NCBI GenBank assembly: GCA_017996625.1
Contig: JAGOGO010000010.1
Location: 1-44,804, forward strand
Source: Deltaproteobacteria bacterium
GTDB taxonomy: Bacteria > Desulfobacterota > WTBG01 > JAGOGO01
Length of the DNA: 44,804 nt
Direction: 5' to 3'
Part shown: positions 100-44,804 of the stretch, in pieces
Numbering within the stretch: position 1 is the first letter of the stretch
Layout: every line of letters begins with the position of its first letter
Program-made: the position numbers and the translations under genes
The notes under the pieces: generated by a model
The model's database searches: none
What the model saw: the letters and a program-made list of their open reading frames with translations, nothing else
What the model was told of the DNA's origin: nothing

Positions 100-639
100 A
101 TGTCGAGCGCAACGAGACATCTCATTCTGCGGCTGCTGTTTCCCAAAAAGTACCCCAGCAAGAGGAAGCAGTATACCGAGCCGCTGGAAGTCGAATCAGT
201 GATCGGTGCTGCTATGATGGTGCGAAAAGAAGCAATAGATAGTGTCGGCATGCTTGATGAGGATTATTTCTTTTTTATTGAGGAAACTGACTGGTGCTTG
301 CGGATGCGGGACGCCGGCTGGAAGATTTACCACCTGCCTAACGCTCCGATCTACCATCTTCAAGGAAAGAGCAAAGAGAAGGACCCTGGGGCTGCCTGGA
401 TCGAATACTATCGCTCTCTATACTTGTTCTTCCGCAAACACAGGGGATTAACCGCATACTGGATTTTAAGAATAGTGAAGCTAGCCAAGTTAGGGACAAA
501 TTGGCTGCTGACGCTGGCAGGTCTCGGTGCGACTATGGGCAGATCCAGCCGGCTTCGACGCAAGTTCCGAATCTATTCGCGGCTGCTTCTGTGGCATCTT
601 CGGTTCTGCCCTTCCAATGCCGGACTTGAAGGCAAGTAA
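100..639 (+). CDS. Family 2 glycosyltransferase, N-terminally truncated
   Basis: The 179 residues match the C-terminal half of rhamnosyl/galactosyl-type GT2 enzymes. Residues 34-70 carry the block VIGAAMMVRKEAID, then GMLDEDYFFFIEETDWCLR, which contains the acceptor-side ED/W signature. Family members are usually near 300 residues, so the nucleotide-sugar-binding half with its DXD motif is missing. The reading frame is closed by a stop at 64-66, and a GC-rich repeat hairpin precedes the ATG. It may therefore be a decayed gene, or its first part may lie in another frame or outside the window. It heads the LPS-core cluster and is probably inactive as it stands. The family assignment is firm; the status of the gene is not. 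Confidence 0.65.
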   Translation: MSSATRHLILRLLFPKKYPSKRKQYTEPLEVESVIGAAMMVRKEAIDSVGMLDEDYFFFIEETDWCLRMRDAGWKIYHLPNAPIYHLQGKSKEKDPGAAWIEYYRSLYLFFRKHRGLTAYWILRIVKLAKLGTNWLLTLAGLGATMGRSSRLRRKFRIYSRLLLWHLRFCPSNAGLEGK

Positions 640-667
640 GGATTAGCGGAGTATTGCTGGAATTAGG

Positions 668-2173
668 TTGCCCGATACGCTGCCGGAAGCCAGGCGGGTG
701 CTGCTTCGGTTTACAATGATGGAATCAATACCCTTCCCCTTGACGATATACTTGACGGATGCTCCGGTGAGCAGTGAAATATTGATCTGTCAGACGCTCA
801 TGCGGCACGTACCCGGCCGGCGCATGGTGTGTCGTGCTGAATGGGAAGGAGCCCCGGTAGCGGTGAAGCTGTTATTCGACAAGCACAGAAGCAAACGACA
901 CTGGCTGCGGCAAGAGCGGGGCATCTGTGCCTTAATGACACGCAATGTTTTTTTGCCCCTTCCGGTTTATTCCGGCCGCTATCAGAGCGACCGGATGTAC
1001 CCACCCAACGGCTATTGCGTTGTCTTTCGCTTTGTAGCAGAGGCAATAACCCTTGAGGAAGCTTGGAGAGCATCTGAGACGCCGGAAGAGCAGAAGCAGC
1101 TCCTGGAACAGGTCATACCCATGCTGGCATCTCTTCATGAGAAAGGAGTGATTCAGAGCGATCTCCACCTGAAGAACTTTCTCCTCCAGGGTACGAAAAT
1201 GCACCTGCTTGACTACGATTCCATTTCCGTATCCAATGAACCCCTCGGTAAGCAGATATCACTGACTAATCTCGGGCTCTTTTTCGCCCAATTTCCACCG
1301 TGGTTCGATGGCTGGGTGAACGATCTGGTGAAGGTATATGCTTCCTCCCGAGGCTGGCAGAACGTAGAAGCAGGAGCTTCCTTTCTTCTGCGGATAGTAG
1401 ACAAATGCCGAAAGCGGCGAGCCAGAAGAGTACTCAAAAAGATATTCCGCGAGAGCAGCAGTTACTGCTTTCTGAAAGAATGGAATCTGAATGCGGTCTA
1501 CAGTCGGTCACTATGCTTTGGCAACGGTGCAGCTCTGGTCCGAAACCCGGATGCTCTGATATCGGAAGAAGAACGCGGCAATCTGAAAAAAGGCAACACG
1601 TCCACGGTGACTGCAGCGATGGTGAGCGGAGAGCCGCTGGTTATCAAACGGTACAATATCAAGAACCTGTTTCATGGCTTTTCTCGCAGCCTTCGCCCGT
1701 CTCGCGCCGCTCGCTCCTGGGAAAATGCTCACCGCCTGGCTTTGCTGGATATCGCAACGGCACCGCCTCAGGCGTTTATAGAGAAAAGAATAGGGCCGAT
1801 CCGGCGGGAATCCTTCTTCATTACCTCCCTCGTAAAGGGAGAGAACTGCCTCCGGTTCTTTCACAATGATGGGATTTCTCCTGCGGAGCAAGTCCGGGTG
1901 GCGGAAAAGATTGCCGCTCTGTTCCGGCTCCTGGCTCGCTATCGGATCAGTCACGGAGACCTGAAAGCGACGAATATTCTGATCGCCGCTGATTCGGTGA
2001 TTCTGATTGATCTTGACGCCATGCGGGAGCACCGTTTCCTGAGCAGTTTTCAAAAGGCGTTCCAAGCTGATCTGAGAAGATTTTTGAAGAACTGGGATGA
2101 ATTGCCAGATGTGAAAAGACTTTTTGCAAATACACTGGCTGATCTATTGGCTACGTACCACTGCCTGAAATGA
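668..2173 (+). CDS. Tandem LPS-kinase-like protein (two kinase domains)
   Basis: This 501-residue protein carries two protein-kinase-fold halves of the WaaP/Kdo-kinase (InaA-like) type. The first has an ATP lysine in VAVKLLF (K67), catalytic-loop SDLHLKN at 164-170 and metal-binding LLDYD at 180-184. The second has LVIKRYN (K327), HGDLKATN at 429-436 and LIDLD at 446-450. Both retain the catalytic Asp and the metal Asp. It is likely a cytoplasmic kinase or kinase-like protein phosphorylating LPS inner-core heptose. Its place before waaG and waaP resembles the Pseudomonas core cluster, which also has a long kinase-like gene. The open frame begins with TTG; the ATG pair at 716/719 is an alternative start that removes 16-17 residues. 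Fold and context are clear, the substrate is inferred. Confidence 0.75.
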   Translation: MPDTLPEARRVLLRFTMMESIPFPLTIYLTDAPVSSEILICQTLMRHVPGRRMVCRAEWEGAPVAVKLLFDKHRSKRHWLRQERGICALMTRNVFLPLPVYSGRYQSDRMYPPNGYCVVFRFVAEAITLEEAWRASETPEEQKQLLEQVIPMLASLHEKGVIQSDLHLKNFLLQGTKMHLLDYDSISVSNEPLGKQISLTNLGLFFAQFPPWFDGWVNDLVKVYASSRGWQNVEAGASFLLRIVDKCRKRRARRVLKKIFRESSSYCFLKEWNLNAVYSRSLCFGNGAALVRNPDALISEEERGNLKKGNTSTVTAAMVSGEPLVIKRYNIKNLFHGFSRSLRPSRAARSWENAHRLALLDIATAPPQAFIEKRIGPIRRESFFITSLVKGENCLRFFHNDGISPAEQVRVAEKIAALFRLLARYRISHGDLKATNILIAADSVILIDLDAMREHRFLSSFQKAFQADLRRFLKNWDELPDVKRLFANTLADLLATYHCLK

Positions 2174-2222
2174 TGCCTGCTGGAACCCGGAATCATATCC
2201 ACACGCTTGAGCGCGGGTTGAG

Positions 2223-3365
2223 ATGAAAATAGCTTTTTGCCTTTTTAAATATTTCCCCTTCGGCGGTATGCAGCGCGATTTCATTCGTGTTGCAGATCTT
2301 TGCCATCAGCGGGGGCATACCGTTGAGGCATTTGTGCTTCACTGGGAGGGGATTATCCCACCGTGGCTTAAGGTAAGGGTTTTTGCCAATTCCCGGCTAA
2401 CGAATCACCATCGGTGCCGCACGTTTGTCAGACGCATCACCCCTGTGATTCAACAGGGAGGCTACGATCTGGTCATGGGGTTTGACAAGATGCCGGGCTT
2501 GGACGTGTATTTTGCTGCTGATCCGTGTTTCAGGGTTCGGGAAAGGGAACGTCATTCATGGCTGTATCGGCTTACACCCCGGTATCGACACTTCGCTGCA
2601 TTTGAAAAGGCGGTATTTGATCGCCAGGCACGAACGGAGATCCTCCTGCTGGCCGAGCAAGAGCGGGCTCGGTTTATCAGTGTCTATCAGACAGCTCCGG
2701 AACGTTTTCATATCCTGCCCCCAGGCATATCCCGAGAGTTTATGTATACTGAAGAAGCTGAAGGTCTGGGCAAGCCTTTTTTCCTGAGCAACGGAATTGA
2801 TCCGCAGCGAACGTTCCTGCTTTTCGTTGGGTCGCGCTTCGTCACTAAAGGCCTGGATCGAGCACTGACCTCGGTCGCCAGCTTACCCCTTGCTCTAAGA
2901 AAGACTGTGGATCTGCACGTGGTTGGTTCGGATGCTGCCGGTCCGTTTATTCGGATGGCGAAGCAGCTGGGTATTGCCGGCCAGGTGCGTTTCTGGGGAG
3001 GACGTGATGATGTGCGCCGGTTTTATCTGGCTGCTGATCTGTTGATTCATCCCGCATACACTGAAGCCGCCGGCATGGTTTTGCTCGAGGCTTTGGTTTC
3101 CGGTCTGCCGGTGCTTACCACCGATCGATGCGGCTATGCTCATTACATAACCGAGGCTCAGGCAGGCATTGTCCTCTCCTCGCCTTACAGGCAGGAAGCA
3201 ATGAACCAGGCCTTGGACTACATGATCAGCGCTCCCGAGCGAACCCGGTGGATTCATAATGGCCGTGTATATGGAAGACAGCATAACCTCTATGATCTTC
3301 ATAAGGAATGCGTAAATATGATCGAAAGGTTCGGTCAGGAACGATGCGCGAAGGAGATCACGTGA
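2223..3365 (+). CDS. waaG: LPS core heptose(I) alpha-1,3-glucosyltransferase WaaG
   Basis: A 380-residue GT4 glycosyltransferase with strong WaaG character. It starts MKIAFCLFKYFPFGGMQRDF, the acceptor-binding N-terminus, with GFDKMPGLDVYFAADPC near 80-100, LPPGI near 172, and the GT4 donor-site EX7E motif in TEAAGMVLLE near 280-290. It would transfer glucose from UDP-glucose to heptose I of the inner core at the cytoplasmic face of the inner membrane. Length equals that of the family. Its 3' end overlaps waaP by 22 bases, so the two are translationally coupled and act in sequence. Confidence in function is high from motif order and neighbour. Confidence 0.93.
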   Translation: MKIAFCLFKYFPFGGMQRDFIRVADLCHQRGHTVEAFVLHWEGIIPPWLKVRVFANSRLTNHHRCRTFVRRITPVIQQGGYDLVMGFDKMPGLDVYFAADPCFRVRERERHSWLYRLTPRYRHFAAFEKAVFDRQARTEILLLAEQERARFISVYQTAPERFHILPPGISREFMYTEEAEGLGKPFFLSNGIDPQRTFLLFVGSRFVTKGLDRALTSVASLPLALRKTVDLHVVGSDAAGPFIRMAKQLGIAGQVRFWGGRDDVRRFYLAADLLIHPAYTEAAGMVLLEALVSGLPVLTTDRCGYAHYITEAQAGIVLSSPYRQEAMNQALDYMISAPERTRWIHNGRVYGRQHNLYDLHKECVNMIERFGQERCAKEIT

Positions 3366-4192
3366 TCTACGTCCGTGCCGATGTGGCCGATATTCTCTGT
3401 CGTGAGGAGATGCTGCAGCGATTGCTGCACTTGCAGGGCACGGTGTATCGCGCTGTCGCCAATCGCAGAACCATCTGCATAGTACTCGGAAAGAAGTCTT
3501 ACTTCGTCAAGATCCACAGAGGAGCTGGATGGAAAGAGATCTTCAAGAACCTTTTTCAGGGTAAGCGTCCGATTCTCGATGCAAGCAATGAGTGGCGTTG
3601 CCTGCAGAAACTCCAGGAACTAGGGGTTGCCAGTCCAAGGATTGCAGCCTATGGCATGGCGGGGCGAAATCCAGGCCGGAGGCGGTCGTTTGTTATGACC
3701 GATGCCATGGAGGATGTTGAGAATCTTGAAGAGTTCTGTCGGCGACATTTCTCCGCACCGCTGACAAGACAAACTGTCCTGCTCAAATACGCTCTTATCC
3801 GTGCAGTTGCTTCCCGCGCCCGCGCTCTGCATAGCAATGGGATCAACCATCAGGATTTTTACTTGTGCCATCTTCTGCTCAATCCTCAAACAGTTGAGCA
3901 GAAAGGGCTGCCGCCAGAAATCGAGCTCATTGTCTCCGATCTTCATCGCGCCTGCGTGCGCCGGAAGACGCCGGTCCGAGCGGTGATTAAGGATCTGGCA
4001 GCGGTGTATTTTTCGAGCATCGGGATTGTCCCGCTGACACGGCGAGATCTCTTCCGGTTCGTTGCTGCATATCGTCAACAAACACTGAGAACAGTGCTGG
4101 GGGACGAAGCTGCTTTTTGGAAAGCGGTAGAAAAGCGTGCATACAGGGTCTACCGGAAGGTTCACGGTGGAATAGTAAGGAGTAAAAAGTAA
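3344..4192 (+). CDS. waaP: LPS core heptose(I) kinase WaaP
   Basis: A 282-residue LPS heptose kinase that phosphorylates O4 of heptose I with ATP. Counted from this start, the ATP lysine is in KSYFVKIHRG (K56), the catalytic Asp in GINHQDFYLCH (D171) and the metal-binding Asp in VSDLHRA (D199). The GWKEIFKNLF segment and the LAAVYFSSI helix are also WaaP-like. The start at 3344 was chosen because AGGA lies about six bases upstream and the N-terminus then matches the family length. An ATG at 3308 would overlap waaG by 58 bases and has AGGA directly abutting it. The last residues (GIVRSKK) are encoded by the arm of a dispersed repeat that continues downstream, so the native C-terminus may have been altered slightly. 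Confidence 0.92.
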   Translation: MREGDHVIYVRADVADILCREEMLQRLLHLQGTVYRAVANRRTICIVLGKKSYFVKIHRGAGWKEIFKNLFQGKRPILDASNEWRCLQKLQELGVASPRIAAYGMAGRNPGRRRSFVMTDAMEDVENLEEFCRRHFSAPLTRQTVLLKYALIRAVASRARALHSNGINHQDFYLCHLLLNPQTVEQKGLPPEIELIVSDLHRACVRRKTPVRAVIKDLAAVYFSSIGIVPLTRRDLFRFVAAYRQQTLRTVLGDEAAFWKAVEKRAYRVYRKVHGGIVRSKK

Positions 4193-4322
4193 GAAGTGAG
4201 AAGCAAGAAGTAAGAAGATGTTGTGAGTTACGGGTTACAAGTTCATGGTTAAGCAAGAGACCTGTAACCCGCAACGTGCAACTCGTAACCGACCTCTTCA
4301 CCCCTCACTCTTCACTCCTTAC
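4175..4322. repeat. Imperfect palindromic intergenic repeat, copy 1
   Basis: The element has outer arms GTAAGGAGT (4175-4183) and ACTCCTTAC (4314-4322) and inner arms GGGTTACA (4232-4239) and TGTAACCC (4263-4270). Between them run short purine words such as AAGTAAGAAGTGAGAAG. The same outer arms, followed by GGTATTG(A/C)GAACC, recur at 24093-24390. The element starts inside waaP and fills much of the 379-base gap to the next gene. The rest of the gap (4323-4571) shows no gene. Confidence 0.75.
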
Positions 4323-11191: not shown

Positions 11192-13447
11192 TCAGGAGTA
11201 ATGAAAGATAGGAGTGTCACCATGCTCGCTCAAATCGATGGTAACCGTCCCTCCCTTGAGGAGCTTTCCGAACAGAATTTCTTCACTAAGAACATTCTTG
11301 ATAGTTGTCTGAATCAGGCGTGACAATGGTCGAGCTCCATAAATAGGGTCATACCCATGCTGTGCCAGCCACGTACGAACTTCGGGCGAGAGAATAACCC
11401 GTACCTTGCGCTCGGCCAGCTGCGCTCCGAGTTCAGCCATGAACTTGTCCACAATTTTTTCCATTATCACCGGTGTTAGCGCATGAAAGGTGATAATCCC
11501 ATCCAGACGATTGCGAAATTCCGGGCTGAACAACTTCTCAACAGCCTTTTTGCCCTCCTGGCTTTTGTCTGTTATCTCACCGCCTGCGAATCCAAGCTGG
11601 GTTGAGCTCATTTCCCGGGCTCCCGCATTAGAAGTCATCATCAGGACAACATGGCGGAAGTCAGCCTTCTTGCCGTTGTTGTCGGTGAGAGTCGCATGGT
11701 CCATGATCTGGAGAAGAATGTTGAATATATCCAGGTGGGCCTTTTCTATTTCATCCAAGAGCAACACACTATAAGGATTTTTTCTGACGGCATCAGTGAG
11801 CAGTCCACCTTGGTCAAAACCGATATAACCAGGAGGTGCGCCGATAAGCCGAGCCACTGCATGCTTCTCCATGTATTCGCTCATATCAAAGCGCAAAAAA
11901 TTGATGCCGAGAACGCTGGCCAGCTGTTTTGCCACTTCCGTCTTGCCGACACCCGTGGGCCCAATAAAGAGAAATGATCCGATTGGCTTGTCCGGAAGTC
12001 CAAGCCCGGCCCGGGATCGCTTGATTGCGGTGACAAGATTCTTAATGGCCTCATCTTGGCCGAAGACCTTTGCGTTAAGTTCGCCTTCGAGGTTTTGCAG
12101 CTGAATCTTGTCGGATGATGAGACGCTTCGCAGGGGGATTTTCGCCATGCGGGCCACTACCTTTTCAATGTCTTTCGGAGTGATAGCGGACCTTCTTTTG
12201 CGTTCCGGACTCACCTTGAATATGGCTCCTGCCTCATCAATCACGTCAATCGCTTTATCCGGAAGAAAGCGATCATTGATATGCTTCGCCGCCAATTCAG
12301 TTGCTGATTCAAGGGCAGCAGAGGTGTAGGTGACACCATGATGTTTTTCGTAATACTGCTTCAGCCCTTTAAGAATGCTGAGCGTTTCAGCGGTTGATGG
12401 TTCAGCGATCTCGATTTTTTGAAAGCGCCGAGAAAGCGCTCGGTCTTTTTCAAAATGATTCTTGTATTCCTCGTACGTTGTCGTGCCAATGCAGCGCATG
12501 GTGCCGGAAGCGAGGACAGGCTTGAGAATATTCGATGCATCCATGGACCCGCCACTCGTAGCGCCGGCCCCAACGACAGTGTGGATCTCATCGATTGCCA
12601 ATATTGCATCTGGCTGTTGTTGGAGTTCAGTGATAACTCCCTTGAGCCGAGCCTCGAAATCACCGCGGTATTTTGTCCCAGCCAGAAGCGCGCCCATATC
12701 AAGGGCATAGATCTGTGTATTCGCTAATGCTTCGGGAACATCTCTAAGAACAGTCTTAAGTGCCAAGCCTTCGATAATTGCGGTTTTCCCCACTCCTGGA
12801 TCACCAACGAGAATAGGGTTGTTCTTGAGGCGGCGGCCCAGTATCTGAATCATGCGCAGCAACTCAGCTTCACGTCCTATCAGCGGGTCGATGCGACCGG
12901 CTCTTGCCTTCTCAACCAGATTAACCGTAAAGCGTTCCAGTGCGCTTGGACATTTTTGACCGAATTCGCCCTCATTTTCTCTTTCATCCGCATCCGGCTG
13001 CCATTGATCGTCAGAGGACTTTGATATTCCATGAGAGATATAATTCAGAATATCCAGCCGGGTGATCCCTTGAGATTTGAGAAAATAGACTGCATAGGTA
13101 TCCTCTTCTTCAAACATAGCTGCAAGCAAGTCGCCAATAGTGACTTCCTTTTTTTCCGAGGATTGGGCCTGCAGAATAGCCCGTTGAAGCATACGCTGAA
13201 ATCCGACGGTTTGAATAATCTCTTTATTGCTTTCTTCAGGAGCGGCATCGAGATGCTCGGTAAAAAATTCTTCCAGATTTTTTTTCAGTTCAGGTATGTC
13301 TGCTCCGCATTGACGCAGGATGCGACTCCCGGCGTCATCCTTAAGGATGGCAAGAAGCACGTGCTCAATAGTGAGGAGTTCATGCCGGCGCAGCCGTACT
13401 TCACGGACTGCGGCAGCAAACGTCATTTCAAGTTCTCTGCTAATCAT
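11192..13447 (-). CDS. clpA: ATP-dependent Clp protease ATPase subunit ClpA
   Basis: A 751-residue HSP100 unfoldase. The Clp-N double repeat spans residues 1-145. AAA module 1 has Walker [11 protein letters not shown] near 218, and the second has [15 protein letters not shown] near 500 and Walker [12 protein letters not shown] near 565. There is no ClpB-type middle coiled coil, which separates ClpA from ClpB and ClpC. The loop STQLGFAGG near 618 corresponds to the hydrophobic tripeptide loop that docks on ClpP. It unfolds proteins for ClpP in the cytoplasm and takes N-degron substrates from ClpS, encoded just upstream. The 117-base gap between clpS and clpA carries the palindrome CCCGTCGACGGG (13529-13540) and is repeat-like. 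No clpP is in the window. Confidence 0.96.
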
Positions 13448-13455
13448 GTGTGATA

Positions 13456-13564
13456 GCCTCGTAAAAAATCAAACCCCTGCAAGGAGGAGCGACCCCAGCC
13501 GACGCGGGTTGCGACTTAGTTCATCATCCCCGTCGACGGGCACGGATTTTGGAAATGCCGTCAT
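13456..13564. repeat. Repeat-like spacer between clpS and clpA
   Basis: The spacer starts with GCCTCGTAAAAA (13456-13467), which is the exact reverse complement of 14168-14179 on the far side of clpS. It also holds a perfect 12-base palindrome CCCGTCGACGGG (13529-13540). No gene is present. The paired 12-base sequences put clpS and its promoter between inverted repeats. Confidence 0.55.
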
Positions 13565-13879
13565 TTACGCTTCTTCCATGCTACACTTCAGAGGAAATCC
13601 CTTTTGTTCTGCCAGCTGATGGACTGCGGCAATCTTGGTTTCAGCTATCTCTGCAGTATAGATGCCACAGGAAGCAATTCCGCTTTTGTGGATTGTGAGC
13701 ATGATGTGCACTGCTTCTGAAGGTGTCTTGGAAAACACGTTTTGCAGAACGTGTACGACAAAGTCCATGGTTGTGAAGTTATCGTTATGCATCAGAACCT
13801 TATAGCGCGACGGCTCACGCACTGCTTCCCGGATCTTTGTGGCAAGCAATTCATCAACAGTGTTCTGCTCTTTGGCCAT
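13565..13879 (-). CDS. clpS: ClpS N-degron adaptor
   Basis: A 104-residue adaptor that binds destabilising N-terminal residues and hands the proteins to ClpA. The flexible N-terminal tail (1-24) is followed by the core YKVLMHNDNFTTMDFVVHVL, where N32, D33 and M38 match the binding pocket and gatekeeper positions. KSGIASCG with H64 completes the pocket. An upstream frame extends to 14152, but the start at 13879 matches family length and lies about 40 bases downstream of a predicted transcription start. The region upstream of that start is promoter and repeat sequence, so the long form is rejected. It is first in the clpS-clpA-aat operon. Confidence 0.93.
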   Translation of the reverse strand: MAKEQNTVDELLATKIREAVREPSRYKVLMHNDNFTTMDFVVHVLQNVFSKTPSEAVHIMLTIHKSGIASCGIYTAEIAETKIAAVHQLAEQKGFPLKCSMEEA

Positions 13880-13925
13880 ACAGCATTCGCTCCAGAAAAG
13901 GACCTTCCAGGGATAACCCTCTCCT

Positions 13926-13954
13926 ATAATAGGGAAGTCGCTTGAGTCAGTCAA
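13926..13954 (-). promoter_or_regulatory. Sigma70-type promoter of clpS-clpA-aat
   Basis: On the minus strand TTGACT (13949-13954) and TATTAT (13926-13931) are separated by exactly 17 bases. The inferred transcription start near 13919 leaves a leader of about 40 bases before clpS. Spacing and hexamers are close to consensus, so this is the best housekeeping-type promoter for the operon. Confidence 0.8.
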
Positions 13955-14055
13955 GGTTTGACAGTTGAGAAAGTGGACAGCGTATCGGGACAGGAAACGG
14001 CTTGATAAGACCGGTAGACCTTCGTTGGTTGAGAGCTGAACGGAGCCTGGGGCAA

Positions 14056-14179
14056 GGAAGTCCCGTCCCGCGCCTCGCGGGATTACTTCGTCGTCTCCAA
14101 GACGACTTCCAACGAAGTGGGCATCACTTCGTTGCTCATAGGTTGCCGCCACGCGGCTTACTGGCGCTTTTTACGAGGC
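14056..14179. repeat. Hairpin array with 70-bp repeat, copy 1
   Basis: Four hairpins follow each other: CCCGCG/CGCGGG (about 14066-14080), GTCGTCT/AGACGAC (about 14089-14106), AACGAAGTG/CACTTCGTT (14111-14119 with 14125-14133) and GCCGC/GCGGC (about 14146-14158). Positions 14105-14174 are identical to 27020-27089. The array ends in TTTTTACGAGGC, the inverted partner of 13456-13467. It lies upstream of the clpS promoter in a region without genes. Confidence 0.8.
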
Positions 14180-14214
14180 CATCAACATTGAATCTCTGAT
14201 CCTGCTGTCCTGAT

Positions 14215-14340
14215 GCATACCCACGGAGCACCGCACGTGAGGATCTGAAAGCATGCCAGCGAAGGCTCTGGCACATGGCATCCCGCGCTTCAGCCGAAGG
14301 AGGAACCCCCGGATACCTGAGCAGAAAATCTCCGTGATGC
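14215..14340 (+). ncRNA. Candidate structured RNA, possibly glycine-riboswitch-like
   Basis: A closing helix is formed by GCAT plus CACGGAG (14215-14228, with a 3-base bulge) and CTCCGTG plus ATGC (14330-14340). Inside are the hairpin TGCCAG/CTGGCA (14254-14259 with 14268-14273) and a small CTTC-AGCC-GAAG hairpin followed by GGAGGAACCCCCGGA. The string GCCGAAGGAG and the following A/G-rich part loosely recall glycine riboswitches, but the downstream gene is not a glycine gene and the match is imperfect. It lies about 106 bases before the exported-protein gene. A chance structure is possible. Confidence 0.25.
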
Positions 14341-14446
14341 TTCGTCCTTGTTTTCCCGCCTGCAGTATGGTAAATTTAAGCTATTAAAAGTGCTGCCGTT
14401 TGTTGGATACTCGTCATTGACGTTACACTGAATTGTGGAGGAACGA

Positions 14447-14869
14447 ATGAACCTTTTCTGGAGGATAATGGTGCTGATGGTGGCAGGATACTTTTCTTTT
14501 CTGCCGGTGTCTTCCTTTTCCGCCGAAGAGGAAGAGGCTATCATGGTAAGTGAAAAAAATCTGTCAATGATGCCTTGCAAATATCTCCATAAACGTATCG
14601 TTACCGAAGGTGCTTTTTTGGATGTTTCTACGTCTCTCCTTGATACGAGATTTTATGACAAGGGAACCGAGTTCGATGCAAGGTCGTATATCAACTTCCG
14701 TACGGTTGACGAACAAATGTTCACGTATTTCATCCATCAGAGCAAAGCGGATATCCTTTCAGCCTTGAAAACAGGAGATCGGATAGTTATTACCGGGACC
14801 ATCACCTCATGCGCGGATAAGCGGCCATGGATAAAGGTTGACTCGGTTATTCGTGCTACCGAGAAATAA
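14447..14869 (+). CDS. Small exported protein with OB-fold-like domain
   Basis: A 140-residue protein with a signal peptide: MNLFWRIMVLMVAGYFSFL, then a likely cleavage after SSFSA (about residue 26). The mature part has alternating strands, with KRIVTEGAFLDVS, ARSYINFRT and a strand pair DRIVITGTITSC...PWIKVDSV that looks like an OB-fold nucleic-acid/ligand-binding barrel seen in small periplasmic proteins. Two cysteines (in MPCKY and TSCAD) could form a disulfide. The ATG at 14447 was chosen because GGAGG lies about six bases upstream; an in-frame GTG/ATG slightly upstream (14435) would overlap it. No function is recognised. A terminator follows about 115 bases later, so it appears to be a single-gene unit. 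Confidence 0.7.
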   Translation: MNLFWRIMVLMVAGYFSFLPVSSFSAEEEEAIMVSEKNLSMMPCKYLHKRIVTEGAFLDVSTSLLDTRFYDKGTEFDARSYINFRTVDEQMFTYFIHQSKADILSALKTGDRIVITGTITSCADKRPWIKVDSVIRATEK

Positions 14870-14984
14870 GTGCATCGGCTGCTTCATATTCTTGAAATGC
14901 TGGATGCACACTCTCCTCCTGGAGACCCTGGAGCAAGGCGCCTAATAAAAGAAAGTCCCTTCGAGAAAATGTTTTTGATTAAGG

Positions 14985-15021
14985 AAGAGATCGAACAGTC
15001 GTTCTGCCGATCTCTTTTTTT
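14985..15021 (+). terminator. Rho-independent terminator after the small exported-protein gene
   Basis: A 9-bp stem AAGAGATCG (14985-14993) pairs with CGATCTCTT (15008-15016) around a 14-base loop and runs into a T tract (15015-15021). It closes the transcript of the exported-protein gene just before lnt. Confidence 0.75.
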
Positions 15022-15034
15022 CACTTTTTAACGG

Positions 15035-16669
15035 TTGACGGCATTATCAGGCTGTCATAAGCGGTCGAACCTTCTTATGCATGGTCTTCAACGTCTACTG
15101 GCCTCTCTCTCGGTGAGAGATCTTCTGCTATCTATAGTGAGCGGAAGTCTTCTGACTCTTTCCTTGCCTGCTCATGACCTTTCCTGGCTCGCCTGGGGCA
15201 GCTTGATACCTCTCTTCTTCGCTCTTGAAGGGAAACCTCCGGCAGCCATGTTTCGGCTCGGACTGCTGGCCGGATTTGTTCACTACCTCTCAATGCTCTA
15301 TTGGACTGTGGTGGCGATGCATTTTTACGGCAAAATCCCCATTATCCTGAGCATCATATTACTCATGATGCTCGCGATGTATTTGAGCCTCTATGTCGGT
15401 ATCGCTAGCTGGGGAATCGGACGCTTGGCTTCGCACATCGGTTTCCAAAAGGCAGTTGCTGCGATGCCTTCATTGTGGGTAGCAACTGAGTATATGCGCA
15501 GTCATCTTCTTACCGGATTTCCCTGGTGCCTTCTAGGCTACTCTCAGTACCACAATCTCGTGGTTGTCCAAATGGCTGATCTAACCGGGGTCCTTGGCAT
15601 TAGTTTTGTGATCGTCCTCGTGAATGCATGTTTGTTCGTCGTTCTGAAATTGACTCTCTCTTGTTTTCGGAAAGGATCTGCGGATGGACTGCTCTTTCCG
15701 CTTTTTTTTATTGCACTCACGATAGCTGTAATTGTAGGCGTAAACACCTATGGTGCCTGGCGCGTGCAGGGGCTGCAAGCATCGATCGCACAATGTCCGA
15801 AGGCTCAGGTTGGACTCGTTCAAGGGAATATCGACCAAAGTCAGAAATGGAACCCTACCAATTTTACGAGGACGCTGGAGACGTATCAGTTACTGACGCG
15901 TAAAGCGGTGCAGACAAAAACTGATGTGATAGTTTGGCCTGAAACAGCTGTTCCTGGCTATTACGTGCCGGAACTCGCAGAATCTCATTTCATGTCAGAC
16001 CTCTCCCGGCAGGTCGAAAGCGCTATTATTTTTGGGAGCCTGTCGTACGAACGCAGGCCGGCTGGTTTTGCACTTTACAACAGCGCGTTTATGGTCTCGT
16101 CGCATCAATCCGAACTCCTACGCTATGACAAGGTCCATCTGGTTCCTTTCGGGGAGTACGTGCCACTTAAGCCATTGCTGCCGTTTGTTGATAAGCTGGT
16201 TGAAGGAATCGGAGAGTTCTCTGTGGGAAACAGGTATCCACTTTTTTCTTTCGGCCGCGGCACAGGTGGCATAGTGATCTGTTACGAAGCGATATTCCCC
16301 CAGTATGCACGCGCCTATGTCAACCGCGGAGCAACTGTTCTCGTGAACATTACTAATGATGCATGGTTTGGCCATACGGATGCACCTTACCAACATTTCG
16401 CCATGGCAATTATGCGAGCAGTTGAAAATCGGGTTCCACTTATCAGGGCTGCCAACACCGGGATATCCGCCATTGTCAGTCCCCTCGGAGAAGTACAGGA
16501 TGCGACCCCCCTTTTTGTTGAAGCCTTCCTCAGCGGCACCATTCCTATTCGCGAAACACACACAGTATATAGTAGGTATGGTGACCTCATTGCGGTCTTA
16601 GTCGCAGGTTTCGCGCTTGCCCCTGTTTTCCTCATTCATGTTTTAAGAAGAACAACCGATACTATATAG
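15035..16669 (+). CDS. lnt: Apolipoprotein N-acyltransferase Lnt
   Basis: Up to 544 residues. Six or so membrane helices (residues 25-240) precede a periplasmic nitrilase-fold domain (about 265-510) and a last membrane helix. The catalytic triad is visible: Glu in VWPETAVPG near 309, Lys in YDKVHLVPFGEYVP near 368 and Cys in VICYEAIFP near 421. It adds the third acyl chain to the N-terminal Cys of lipoproteins in the inner membrane, which fits the lipoprotein PilP encoded nearby. The open frame begins with TTG at 15035 next to the terminator T tract; the ATG at 15077 (MHGLQRLL) gives a more usual length and may be the true start. Confidence 0.93.
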   Translation: MTALSGCHKRSNLLMHGLQRLLASLSVRDLLLSIVSGSLLTLSLPAHDLSWLAWGSLIPLFFALEGKPPAAMFRLGLLAGFVHYLSMLYWTVVAMHFYGKIPIILSIILLMMLAMYLSLYVGIASWGIGRLASHIGFQKAVAAMPSLWVATEYMRSHLLTGFPWCLLGYSQYHNLVVVQMADLTGVLGISFVIVLVNACLFVVLKLTLSCFRKGSADGLLFPLFFIALTIAVIVGVNTYGAWRVQGLQASIAQCPKAQVGLVQGNIDQSQKWNPTNFTRTLETYQLLTRKAVQTKTDVIVWPETAVPGYYVPELAESHFMSDLSRQVESAIIFGSLSYERRPAGFALYNSAFMVSSHQSELLRYDKVHLVPFGEYVPLKPLLPFVDKLVEGIGEFSVGNRYPLFSFGRGTGGIVICYEAIFPQYARAYVNRGATVLVNITNDAWFGHTDAPYQHFAMAIMRAVENRVPLIRAANTGISAIVSPLGEVQDATPLFVEAFLSGTIPIRETHTVYSRYGDLIAVLVAGFALAPVFLIHVLRRTTDTI

Positions 16670-16706
16670 CGTGAACCACACCTCCCTCGACGTCGGGGAT
16701 CCGAAT

Positions 16707-16743
16707 AAGCCACCAGAATATCAGGATAATTTCCTGGCGGCTT
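16707..16743. promoter_or_regulatory. Inverted repeat overlapping the pilM -35 box
   Basis: AAGCCACCAG (16707-16716) and CTGGCGGCTT (16734-16743) are complementary at nine of ten positions. The right arm runs into the TTGACA -35 hexamer of the pil promoter. No T tract follows on either strand, so an operator is a better reading than a terminator, though neither is proven. Confidence 0.4.
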
Positions 16744-16770
16744 GACAGGAAAAAAATATCTTTATATTTT
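16742..16770 (+). promoter_or_regulatory. Sigma70-type promoter of pilMNOPQ
   Basis: TTGACA (16742-16747) and TATTTT (16765-16770) are separated by 17 A/T-rich bases. The leader to the pilM ATG would be about 100 bases. It is the only strong promoter-like pair in the lnt-pilM gap. Confidence 0.7.
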
Positions 16771-16878
16771 CTAAACAAGGCGATGTTTTTACGTCGTTAT
16801 TCTTGCCATTGACTTGGGGAGGTGAGTGATTGCCGTAAGCGTACGACAGAATAATCTTTTGCGGGAGTTTCTCACTCA

Positions 16879-17937
16879 ATGCTATTACTAGGACGATCAA
16901 AGGGTATACTCGGGCTTGATATCGGAACCAGCTCCATAAAGATTGTTGAGCTTGAAGAGACAAAAAAAGGATATCAGCTGAAGAATTTTGGGACGTCTCT
17001 TCTCCCCAAAGAAACAATCGTCAATGGCGTTCTCAAGAATGCTTCCGCCCTTGTGAATGCACTTACCAACTTAACTGCCAATCTCAAGACACGCACCAAA
17101 TATGTCGCTACCGCAGTCTCCGGCCATCCTGTCATTATCAAGAAAATAAGTGTACCAACTGCTACAGAGCAAGAGCTCGCCGACTCCATTCAGTGGGAAG
17201 CAGAGCAGTACATTCCCTTTGATCTGGAAGAGGTGAATATTGATTTTGAAATCATTGGGCCCAATGAAGCAAATCCGGAGCAGATGAACGTACTGCTGGT
17301 GGCTGCAAAAAAATCACTGATTAACGAATACGAAGAAGTCATCAGTGAAGCAGGGCTTGAAACAGCAATCGTCGACATTGACTCTTTTTCCCTCCAGAAT
17401 GCTTATGAGGTCAATTACCCGGACGAGACCGCGCCGGTTGTTGCTCTGGTCGATCTAGGTGCCAGCGTAATAAATATTAATGTAGTTAAAGAGGGAAAGA
17501 GCATTTTTACGCGAGACGTTTTTATGGGGGGCAACAAGCTGAGCGAGGAGATACAAAAGCAGATGGCAGTGAGTGAAGAAGAAGCTGAGCTGCTCAAGGT
17601 GGGCGGTGAAATGGATAATATCGATTATGAACGCCTGGATGGCATTATCCATGAATCAGTTCTCGAATTGGCTGTCGAAGTGCAAAGATCTTTAGACTTG
17701 CAGGCTGCCTCTACCACAGATGAAGAGGTGCGAAAAGTTTATATCTGTGGAGGTACGTCTCGGATACCCGGTATCAGAGAGCTTATCACCGAACGTGTAG
17801 GCGTTCCTGTTGAGACGCTTAACCCTTTTAGAAGAGTTGAGTTCAGTGAATCTCATTTTGATCCAGAGTACATCAAAGATGTTGGTCCTATTGCGGCTGT
17901 GAGTTTGGGATTAGCTTTACGGAAACTGGGGGACTAA
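16879..17937 (+). CDS. pilM: Type IV pilus inner-membrane platform protein PilM
   Basis: A 352-residue actin-like ATPase of the PilM/FtsA fold. Residues 10-22 give LGLDIGTSSIKIVEL (phosphate-1 loop), near 190 is VALVDLGASVINI (phosphate-2) and near 285-295 is VYICGGTSRIPGI (adenosine loop). It binds the cytoplasmic N-terminus of PilN and links the PilNOP alignment complex to the motor. Length is standard. It is the first gene of pilMNOPQ, and pilN begins directly after its stop codon, so the two are co-translated. Confidence 0.95.
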   Translation: MLLLGRSKGILGLDIGTSSIKIVELEETKKGYQLKNFGTSLLPKETIVNGVLKNASALVNALTNLTANLKTRTKYVATAVSGHPVIIKKISVPTATEQELADSIQWEAEQYIPFDLEEVNIDFEIIGPNEANPEQMNVLLVAAKKSLINEYEEVISEAGLETAIVDIDSFSLQNAYEVNYPDETAPVVALVDLGASVININVVKEGKSIFTRDVFMGGNKLSEEIQKQMAVSEEEAELLKVGGEMDNIDYERLDGIIHESVLELAVEVQRSLDLQAASTTDEEVRKVYICGGTSRIPGIRELITERVGVPVETLNPFRRVEFSESHFDPEYIKDVGPIAAVSLGLALRKLGD

Positions 17938-43065: not shown

Positions 43066-43087
43066 GTTTAAACCTTTTTTTGATCAT

Positions 43088-43117
43088 TATATAAATCCAA
43101 GGGGCGCAATTTGTCAA
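43088..43117 (-). promoter_or_regulatory. Sigma70-type promoter of yceD-rpmF-fab operon
   Basis: On the minus strand TTGACA (43112-43117) is followed after 18 bases by TATATA (43088-43093), with TATAAT available two bases further. The start would be near 43080, leaving a short leader before the YceD ATG at 43065. Confidence 0.75.
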
Positions 43118-43535
43118 GAGGAAATTTCACTTTCCCTGCAATTTCAATAGGAATTATTTCCCGGCTGCTGATGCTTTCATGACCCTGCAGCCTCCTGAAT
43201 TCGACCGGATTTTCGAGCGAGAATGTGTGAGAATCCTACGCTGGCACATAATTGTCAAGAAATTTTTGGGTGCAGAGGAGTACGGATTTCGACCACCTGT
43301 GTCGCGATTCTTTGCACTTGTACTGGACCACGTATCATGGCCGCTGCATCATGTCGGCGTACGAGTATCATGCGAGACGCTGTTGCTGTGTCTGCTATGG
43401 ATAACTCTGTCTCGAACAATGAGCCTGAACAAAAGAAAGCCCGACAGCACCTCAGGACTGCCAGGCTGGTAATCATGGCAAAGCTAATTTTTACTTAGAA
43501 TTCAAGAATTGATTGCTTGCCTCACGATCGAGTGC
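43118..43535. other. Apparently gene-free stretch
   Basis: Open frames of up to 97 codons exist on both strands but carry no recognisable domain, no convincing ribosome-binding site and mixed composition. Nothing can be supported here. Together with the receptor remnant that follows, it looks like eroded DNA. Confidence 0.5.
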
Positions 43536-43814
43536 TCAGCAAGGCACAGCATGCAAGGTTTCTTCTTGATGCTGGTGTCTTAGAGAAGAGCCACTAAGTG
43601 CTCTTTGATCATTCTTGTGGTCCTGGGGTACTGGTTTCTTCGTTACGGCAGACACCTGAGCAGCATGTCCCAGCAACTCATTGCCCACGATCATTCTGAG
43701 ACTTTCCACGATTTCTTGCAGGCTGCCAACCTGTTCGGAGAGTTCTTCGCTTGCTGCAGCGGTTTGCTCGGCGTTCGCCGCACATGCCTCGATTGCGTGA
43801 TATGTAGCTCTCAC
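43536..43814 (-). pseudogene. Remnant of a methyl-accepting chemotaxis receptor
   Basis: The first third of this 92-codon frame (ACAANAEQTAAASEELSEQVGSLQEIVESLRMIVG, given here in two pieces: EACAANAEQTAAASEEL and SEQVGSLQEIVESL) matches the end of the signalling domain of methyl-accepting chemotaxis proteins. Such proteins are over 500 residues. The ligand-binding domain, HAMP and the signalling hairpin tip are missing and nothing upstream on this strand continues the match. The C-terminal part (KKPVPQDHKND...) is not MCP-like. It is most likely a decayed gene end. Confidence 0.6.
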
Positions 43815-43896
43815 CGGTGATTACATCTAATGCTCCACGAAAATACATAGTTTTTCGTATTCTTTGGTAGTGCCAGCATTTTATTTTGTATTTAGT

Positions 43897-43949
43897 GTCC
43901 TCTCGTAGAGAAGAACAGCACTGGTATGACCGCCGGAGCTTGAGAGGAC
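43897..43949 (+). repeat. Inverted repeat in the leader of the Glu-rich protein gene
   Basis: GTCCTCTC (43897-43904) and GAGAGGAC (43942-43949) are exact inverted partners separated by 37 bases. It lies about 65 bases before the ATG at 44014. It could be a leader structure; there is no T tract, so it is not a terminator. Confidence 0.35.
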
Positions 43950-44013
43950 AGGGGAGGAACCCTCTGAGACCATCACTGTGCGGCTAGCTGCCGAAAAGGC
44001 GGAGGATAAGGAC

Positions 44014-44804
44014 ATGCAAATAGTTTTAAAACTAAGGATTATACTTTTTGGCCTCGGTATTCTCTTCCTCATGCAACTGACTGCTGGCCTTCCCGGATGG
44101 GGAGGAGACCATGAGCGCGATTCTGAAGGGTTCACGCACTACAATGATGACGGCACCTATGTACAGACTTTCGATGAAGAGGATCGCGAAAGCATCGAAG
44201 GAGAAAATCACGAAGGTGAAAGCGTGGAAGGCGAAGCAGGTGAGATCGAAGAACGTGATGATGAAAACCTTGAGGGCGAACAGTTCGAAAGCGAACAGGG
44301 TGAAGACGAACGTCCTGAGGACGAAGGCGTTGAACGTGAAGCAGATGAGGGTGAAAGACTTGAGAACGAGAGAAGTGAGGCTGAAGAGTACGAGGGCGAG
44401 AGAGACATAGAGGAAAGACGCCAAGGTAAAACGATCGAAGGTGACAGACTAAGGGATGAGCGCGAAGAGCTGGAGCGTGAGCGCGAAAGGATCGAACAGG
44501 AGAATCGCGGGAGTGAAGGGGATGAAGATGAAAGCGACGAAGGTGGTCCAGGAGAAGGTAAAGAACTTGAGGAGGAAGGAGACGAAGCCGAGGGGTATGA
44601 CTACAAGGGAGAAGAAAACCAAAGACGTACCGGTGAGACGAGTGCAGGTGAACGAGTGAGACGCCAGCGCGAAAATCTGGAACGTGAACGTGAAAGCCTC
44701 GAACAGGAAACGCGCGGAGAAGAGATGTATGAGGACGAAGGAGACGAAGGCCAAAGAGATGAAGATGAAGTGATCGGGGCTAAAGAACCTAAAGATGAAT
44801 GGAC
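44014..44804 (+). CDS. Exported Glu/Arg/Asp/Gly-rich low-complexity protein, 5' part
   Basis: An open frame from ATG 44014 to the edge of the window (263 full codons, no stop), preceded by GGAGG eight bases upstream. Residues 1-25 are a signal peptide or membrane anchor (KLRIILFGLGILFLMQLTAG). After a short segment GFTHYNDDGTYVQTFDEED (40-57) the rest is almost only Glu, Asp, Arg, Gly, Ser and Gln, strongly acidic. A 17-residue unit occurs twice: REELERERERIEQENRG (150-166) and RENLERERESLEQETRG (219-235). It is predicted disordered or a highly charged helix. Glu-rich exported proteins often bind cations or matrix. No family is recognised, and the DNA is equally low in complexity (purine-rich plus strand). 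Function unknown. Confidence 0.75.
   Translation, partial: MQIVLKLRIILFGLGILFLMQLTAGLPGWGGDHERDSEGFTHYNDDGTYVQTFDEEDRESIEGENHEGESVEGEAGEIEERDDENLEGEQFESEQGEDERPEDEGVEREADEGERLENERSEAEEYEGERDIEERRQGKTIEGDRLRDEREELERERERIEQENRGSEGDEDESDEGGPGEGKELEEEGDEAEGYDYKGEENQRRTGETSAGERVRRQRENLERERESLEQETRGEEMYEDEGDEGQRDEDEVIGAKEPKDEW

Follow-up and report, generated by a model that had tools for sequence, protein, structure and literature searches.

A lineage-specific acidic repeat gene split between two contigs of a Desulfobacterota genome, with a probable export or membrane segment

Does the glutamate-rich end of this stretch of DNA encode a protein, and what could such a highly charged product do? The window, i.e., the whole stretch analyzed (44,804 nucleotides), corresponds to contig C98 in a draft genome made up of 261 contigs, and it ends inside a repeat. 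A preliminary description made from its letters had proposed that this end holds an exported, extremely acidic repeat protein. The features discussed below are collected in Table 1.

Reading frame and continuation across the contig end

The frame contains no stop codon across 263 codons, up to the last base of the window, and a GGAGG Shine-Dalgarno sequence precedes its ATG by 8 nt, in line with the missing stop and the good Shine-Dalgarno sequence noted in the preliminary description. Because the frame runs off the contig end, complete-ORF calling on this contig would miss the gene, as was also foreseen there. In 2,000 dinucleotide-preserving shuffles, this frame was open in none, and any of the six frames was open in 3.2%. 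In the real sequence, one frame is open over 789 bp, and the other five carry 8, 40, 3, 4, and 5 stops. Base usage is strongly biased at codon position 1 (59% G) and position 2 (54% A) and near even at position 3 (A/C/G/T = 35/22/21/22%), a pattern that indicates a coding gene under amino acid constraint, not plain purine-rich DNA. Between the helix parts of successive repeat modules, third-position changes make up 12 of the 20 and 14 of the 24 base changes, an excess over expectation in both comparisons (binomial p about 0.013 and 0.010, respectively). Most changes between modules are thus absorbed at the wobble position, as expected of a coding frame. Judged by these patterns of base usage and base change, the acidic repeat frame is shown to be a real protein-coding gene. 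Its synonymous codon usage is only weakly native in character, scoring −0.008 in the window part and 0.034 in the part on contig C248 (see below), on a scale where reference genes reach 0.02 to 0.08 and random synonymous codons −0.049.

The gene continues on another contig. The opening 150 bases of contig C248, which run in the same orientation, are the sole other match in the genome, with 3 mismatches in 150 bp (98% DNA identity). The two contigs are most simply read as neighbors whose ends meet head to tail within the repeat. The three overlap differences alter three residues (T to K, E to V, and K to E) and may reflect strain variation or two near-identical neighboring modules. The C248 part of the coding sequence (C248:2-376) keeps the frame and remains open until a TGA at C248:374-376; the frameshift or early stop beyond the window, which the preliminary description named as a sign of functionless purine-rich DNA, did not appear. 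Direct joining of the two contigs, the minimal join, gives a protein of 338 residues with a pI of about 4.2; since the overlap possibly represents two neighboring modules, this length holds for the simplest join, and the module number may differ. The C-terminus on C248 ends in ...EEESRDYEKSFTPSF, with no LPxTG motif and no hydrophobic tail as anchor or sorting signal, and no C-terminal domain was matched in Pfam or NCBIfam. Contig-based annotation therefore loses this coding repeat gene, as the repeat breaks the assembly and neither contig holds the whole gene.

Table 1. Locations of the acidic repeat gene, its parts, and the downstream rhodanese gene (window coordinates unless C248 is given)
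Feature	Location	Strand	Basis
Coding sequence of the probably exported acidic protein, 5' part (263 codons)	44014..44804	+	Open frame, continuation on C248, wobble-position changes
Shine-Dalgarno GGAGG, 8 nt 5' of ATG	about 44001..44005	+	Read directly from the sequence
Residues 1-25, MQIVLKLRIILFGLGILFLMQLTAG, putative signal peptide or membrane anchor at the N-terminus	44014..44088	+	Sequence; model helix 2-24
Short, less charged linker, residues 26-53	44089..44172	+	Composition
Pentapeptide array, residues 54-143: about 18 degenerate units of consensus E-x-x-E-G	44173..44442	+	Lag analysis, column counts
Module 1, about residues 125-195, charged helix ELERERERIEQENRG	44386..44598	+	Self-comparison; model helix 107-166
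Module 2, starting near residue 196 and containing TSAGERVRRQRENLERERESLEQE, truncated at the contig end	44599..44804	+	Self-comparison; C248 match
Rhodanese with in-frame UGA (YCS-U-LHEATSA)	C248 (locus L003) 348-752	+	NF041203 match on read-through

N-terminus, composition, and repeat architecture

The first 25 residues are hydrophobic, with K/R close to the start, and by eye they fit a Sec signal peptide, though they could also be an uncleaved anchor. The signal peptide of the preliminary description is therefore one of two readings, and the protein is probably exported or fixed in the inner membrane, as far as this segment indicates. In the mature part within the window (residues 26-263), E accounts for 31.5%, D for 10%, G for 13%, and R for 11% of residues. 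With 99 D+E (42%) and 32 K+R among 238 residues, its net charge is −67, in agreement with the extreme acidity claimed earlier. The claim that it consists almost entirely of E, D, R, G, S, and Q was somewhat overstated, as these six residues sum to 73.5%. The linker of residues 26-53 is the sole non-repetitive portion of the mature protein within the window.

Repeats occur at two levels. The first is a pentapeptide array, in which E occupies position 1 in 16 of the 18 units and position 4 in 14 of the 18, and G occupies position 5 in 7 of the 18. Residue identity peaks at lags 5, 10, 15, 20, 25, 30, and 35 (z reaching 6) and falls at the lags flanking each multiple of five, a period absent from the preliminary description. 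The second level comprises at least three modules of 69-74 residues after the array, the first of which overlaps the last pentapeptides at its start. Each module runs from a junction (Y-x-G-E..RR-x-G-x-[TS]..G-[DE]-R-[LV]-R-x-[EQ]-R-E; in module 1, Y-x-G-E..RR-x-G..G-D-R-L-R-x-E-R-E) through a charged helix to an acidic, Gly-rich linker. The stretch of module 2 opens C248 (98% identical over 150 bp), and one further module follows there. Within the window, the best ungapped self-match lies at offset 69 and scores 217 over 99 residues, 47 of them identical, whereas 300 composition shuffles reached at most 149; in the joined protein, the best self-matches lie at offsets 69 and 74 (scores 245 and 243). 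The 17-residue unit noticed earlier at a spacing of 69 residues is thus real and belongs to a longer repeat, being the helix part of the modules, and the suggested charged helix units and repeat expansion are supported. The gene may have arisen in this lineage in two steps of tandem expansion, the first involving a 15-bp unit and the later one a larger unit of roughly 210-225 bp.

A single-sequence AlphaFold2 model of the protein is of low confidence (mean pLDDT 62.9, pTM 0.23). It places helices at residues 2-24, 107-166, and 210-239, the latter two with block-wise pLDDT (blocks of 10) as high as 92, and otherwise predicts coil and no strands.

Distribution and genomic surroundings

No homologue of the acidic gene was found in 57 other relatives, in 394 other genomes of the phylum searched with the N-terminal and with the C-terminal part as query, or in a public genome collection and collections of viral contigs, phages, and plasmids. 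A profile of the pentapeptide matched this gene alone in 297 genomes (296 others). The protein matched no known family or structure in Pfam, NCBIfam, or PDB sequences, and a literature search on acidic, glutamate-rich pentapeptide exported proteins returned nothing relevant. Two candidate matches were rejected: one (genome G128; E 5.7e-4) is due to chance, lying on the strand opposite an RND-type transporter gene and containing an internal stop, and the other (G050; E 1.3e-4) reflects the charged residues of part of a small protein that is unrelated and, by look, a Dps/bacterioferritin-like frame. A phage, plasmid, or viral origin was likewise considered and dropped, those collections having given no match. 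Neither of the other two genera sampled in the family has the gene; in one of them (G002), a gene resembling an MltD-type lytic transglycosylase, named from sequence features and not by profile search, adjoins the yceD/DUF177-like homologue, and there is no acidic gene. On these searches, the acidic gene is a lineage-specific orphan, with no homologue to reveal conserved residues or conserved neighbors. The preliminary description had held that absence of the frame from close relatives would mark it as purine-rich DNA without function; no searched relative has the gene, but non-coding DNA does not follow, because the module changes are wobble biased and one frame of six is open.

Upstream of the acidic gene, about 950 bp (window 43066-44013) without a clear gene separate it from a yceD/rpmF/fab cluster, and a consensus search of this interval gave no convincing promoter. 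On the minus strand, a short frame at 43536-43814 containing NAEQTAAASEELSEQVGSLQEIVESLRMIVG looks like a methyl-accepting chemotaxis protein tail (C-terminal) and is possibly a gene remnant severed from the rest of that protein; neither Pfam nor NCBIfam gave a match for it at E ≤ 0.01. A neighboring acyl-CoA dehydrogenase has its closest named relatives, about 65-72% identical, in uncultured Nitrospirota, Thermodesulfovibrionia, and Deltaproteobacteria bins, which places the host among the uncultured bacteria of this wide grouping.

Downstream on C248 lies a rhodanese gene that starts either at an ATG at C248:348, inside the acidic gene, or at a GTG at 389, 12 bp past its stop. Its product has a hydrophobic N-terminus and a UGA codon at the CxU position (the Sec position). 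Read through this UGA, it matches NCBIfam NF041203 at 156 bits (cut-off 115), a known selenoprotein family (rhodanese_LYCAU, CxU motif; rhodanese-related (seleno)protein; PMC13188914). Relatives occur in 46 of the 198 phylum genomes, most of them with a UGA inside the match, and the same genome holds a tRNA-Sec above the Rfam cut-off and a SelB above the NCBIfam cut-off. Together, the family match, the UGA in relatives, tRNA-Sec, and SelB make the reading of this codon as selenocysteine well supported by sequence comparison. As to a SECIS-like hairpin, the sequence just after the UGA shows no unusual folding (z = 0.37), a result that is not decisive, and no Rfam match exceeded its cut-off. Two more rhodanese-like matches lie elsewhere in the genome (C260:28273-28584 and C202:8941-9264 of G000, the genome analyzed here), one with and one without an internal UGA. 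Beside the rhodanese, C248 also carries a minus-strand cluster (878-4289) of glycosyltransferase and 6-pyruvoyl-tetrahydropterin synthase genes (Pfam), with alcohol-dehydrogenase-like and RibD-like reductase frames recognized by look only. Farther on (11930-17854, plus strand), it encodes a probably exported protein of at least 1,975 residues that runs off the contig; by look, this protein has many Ig-like repeats and a terminal part resembling a beta-helix.

Possible roles and likeness to known proteins

We tentatively favor, at somewhat less than even confidence, a reading of the acidic protein as a disordered polyanion that binds cations and water outside the cytoplasm, based on its charge, predicted disorder, and N-terminal segment. 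The N-terminus would take the protein across the inner membrane or fix it there, and outside the cytoplasm most of the chain would remain disordered apart from short charged helices. The dense carboxylates would act as a flexible polyanionic brush that binds and buffers both water and cations (Ca2+, Fe2+, and other metals), the composition being what suggests the cation-binding role, and the protein would be made together with the rhodanese. If the charge-brush idea is true, it would represent an additional sequence type among acidic, exported, disordered bacterial proteins.

The strongest rival, unlikely in our estimate, is a young, fast-expanding repeat gene of minisatellite origin with bulk properties only, translated and exported, of little function beyond bulk charge and with quick turnover between lineages. 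Its absence from the two other sampled genera and from all other genomes searched, a gene order that differs at the corresponding position in G002, and the repeats at two scales fit this account, whereas the wobble-biased module changes imply selection on the amino acid sequence, and the expansion introduced no stop into the frame over the two contigs. We regard as quite improbable that the acidic protein is a partner or scaffold for the selenocysteine rhodanese, e.g., holding the enzyme or its substrate outside the cytoplasm. The two genes share a strand, with the rhodanese starting within the acidic gene or 12 bp beyond its stop, and both sequences begin with hydrophobic, export-like segments. 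However, none of 24 rhodanese loci fetched from other genomes, with about 1.5 kb on each side, contains an acidic gene, indicating that a functional link to the rhodanese, if there is one, does not hold generally. Known biomineral proteins have acidic repeat composition, and this resemblance is what would speak for a mineral-nucleating or surface-matrix protein, the matrix, mineral-binding, or surface polymer of the preliminary description. Without a C-terminal anchor or sorting domain or a match to a known family, and with no mineral-related genes noticed in passing in the vicinity, that composition-based suggestion earns little credence. Very doubtful is a new type of extracytoplasmic polyanion, built of E-x-x-E-G pentapeptides and charged helix modules of strain-variable number, that would cooperate with a selenocysteine rhodanese co-translated with it, for instance by scaffolding the enzyme or by serving as a sink of metals or of selenium/sulfur species. 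That the stretch is purine-rich non-gene DNA or an assembly artifact, as the partly open antisense frames, the contig break within the repeat, and the 3 differing bases in the 150-bp overlap might suggest, is hardly credible when one of six frames is open over 789 bp, places most changes at the wobble position, follows a good Shine-Dalgarno sequence, and stays open to its stop on C248.

Whichever reading applies, the acidic gene is a defined orphan in which repeats have expanded at two levels, and its neighbor is a selenoprotein gene. In kind, the finding is ordinary, being one of many lineage-specific, low-complexity exported proteins, and three known protein types invite comparison with it. 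According to one account, single-alpha-helix (SAH) domains have a high content of Arg, Glu, and Lys and owe their stability to many salt bridges (PMC5347031). The acidic protein resembles them in its charged, E/R-rich helices with few hydrophobic residues, 60 and 30 residues long in the model, but its helices are broken by Gly-rich acidic linkers, and its i to i+4 salt-bridge pairs do not significantly exceed those of shuffles (13 vs 11.5 expected, p = 0.36; 7 vs 4.3, p = 0.10). From the model, a true SAH domain is possible. Pentapeptide repeats of PF00805 follow an A(D/N)LxX motif and form a right-handed quadrilateral beta-helix with a small residue at the inward i-2 position. The acidic protein shares the five-residue period and a few similar pentads (ENLEG); in contrast, it has Glu at the inward i-2 position, its low-confidence model has no strands, and the PF00805 profile did not match it (no Pfam family at E ≤ 1). 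MamJ of magnetotactic bacteria lacks an export signal and organizes magnetosome chains inside the cell. Likened by description and not by sequence comparison, the acidic protein is, as MamJ is, Glu-rich, repetitive, and probably disordered, but it differs from MamJ in having an export-type N-terminus.
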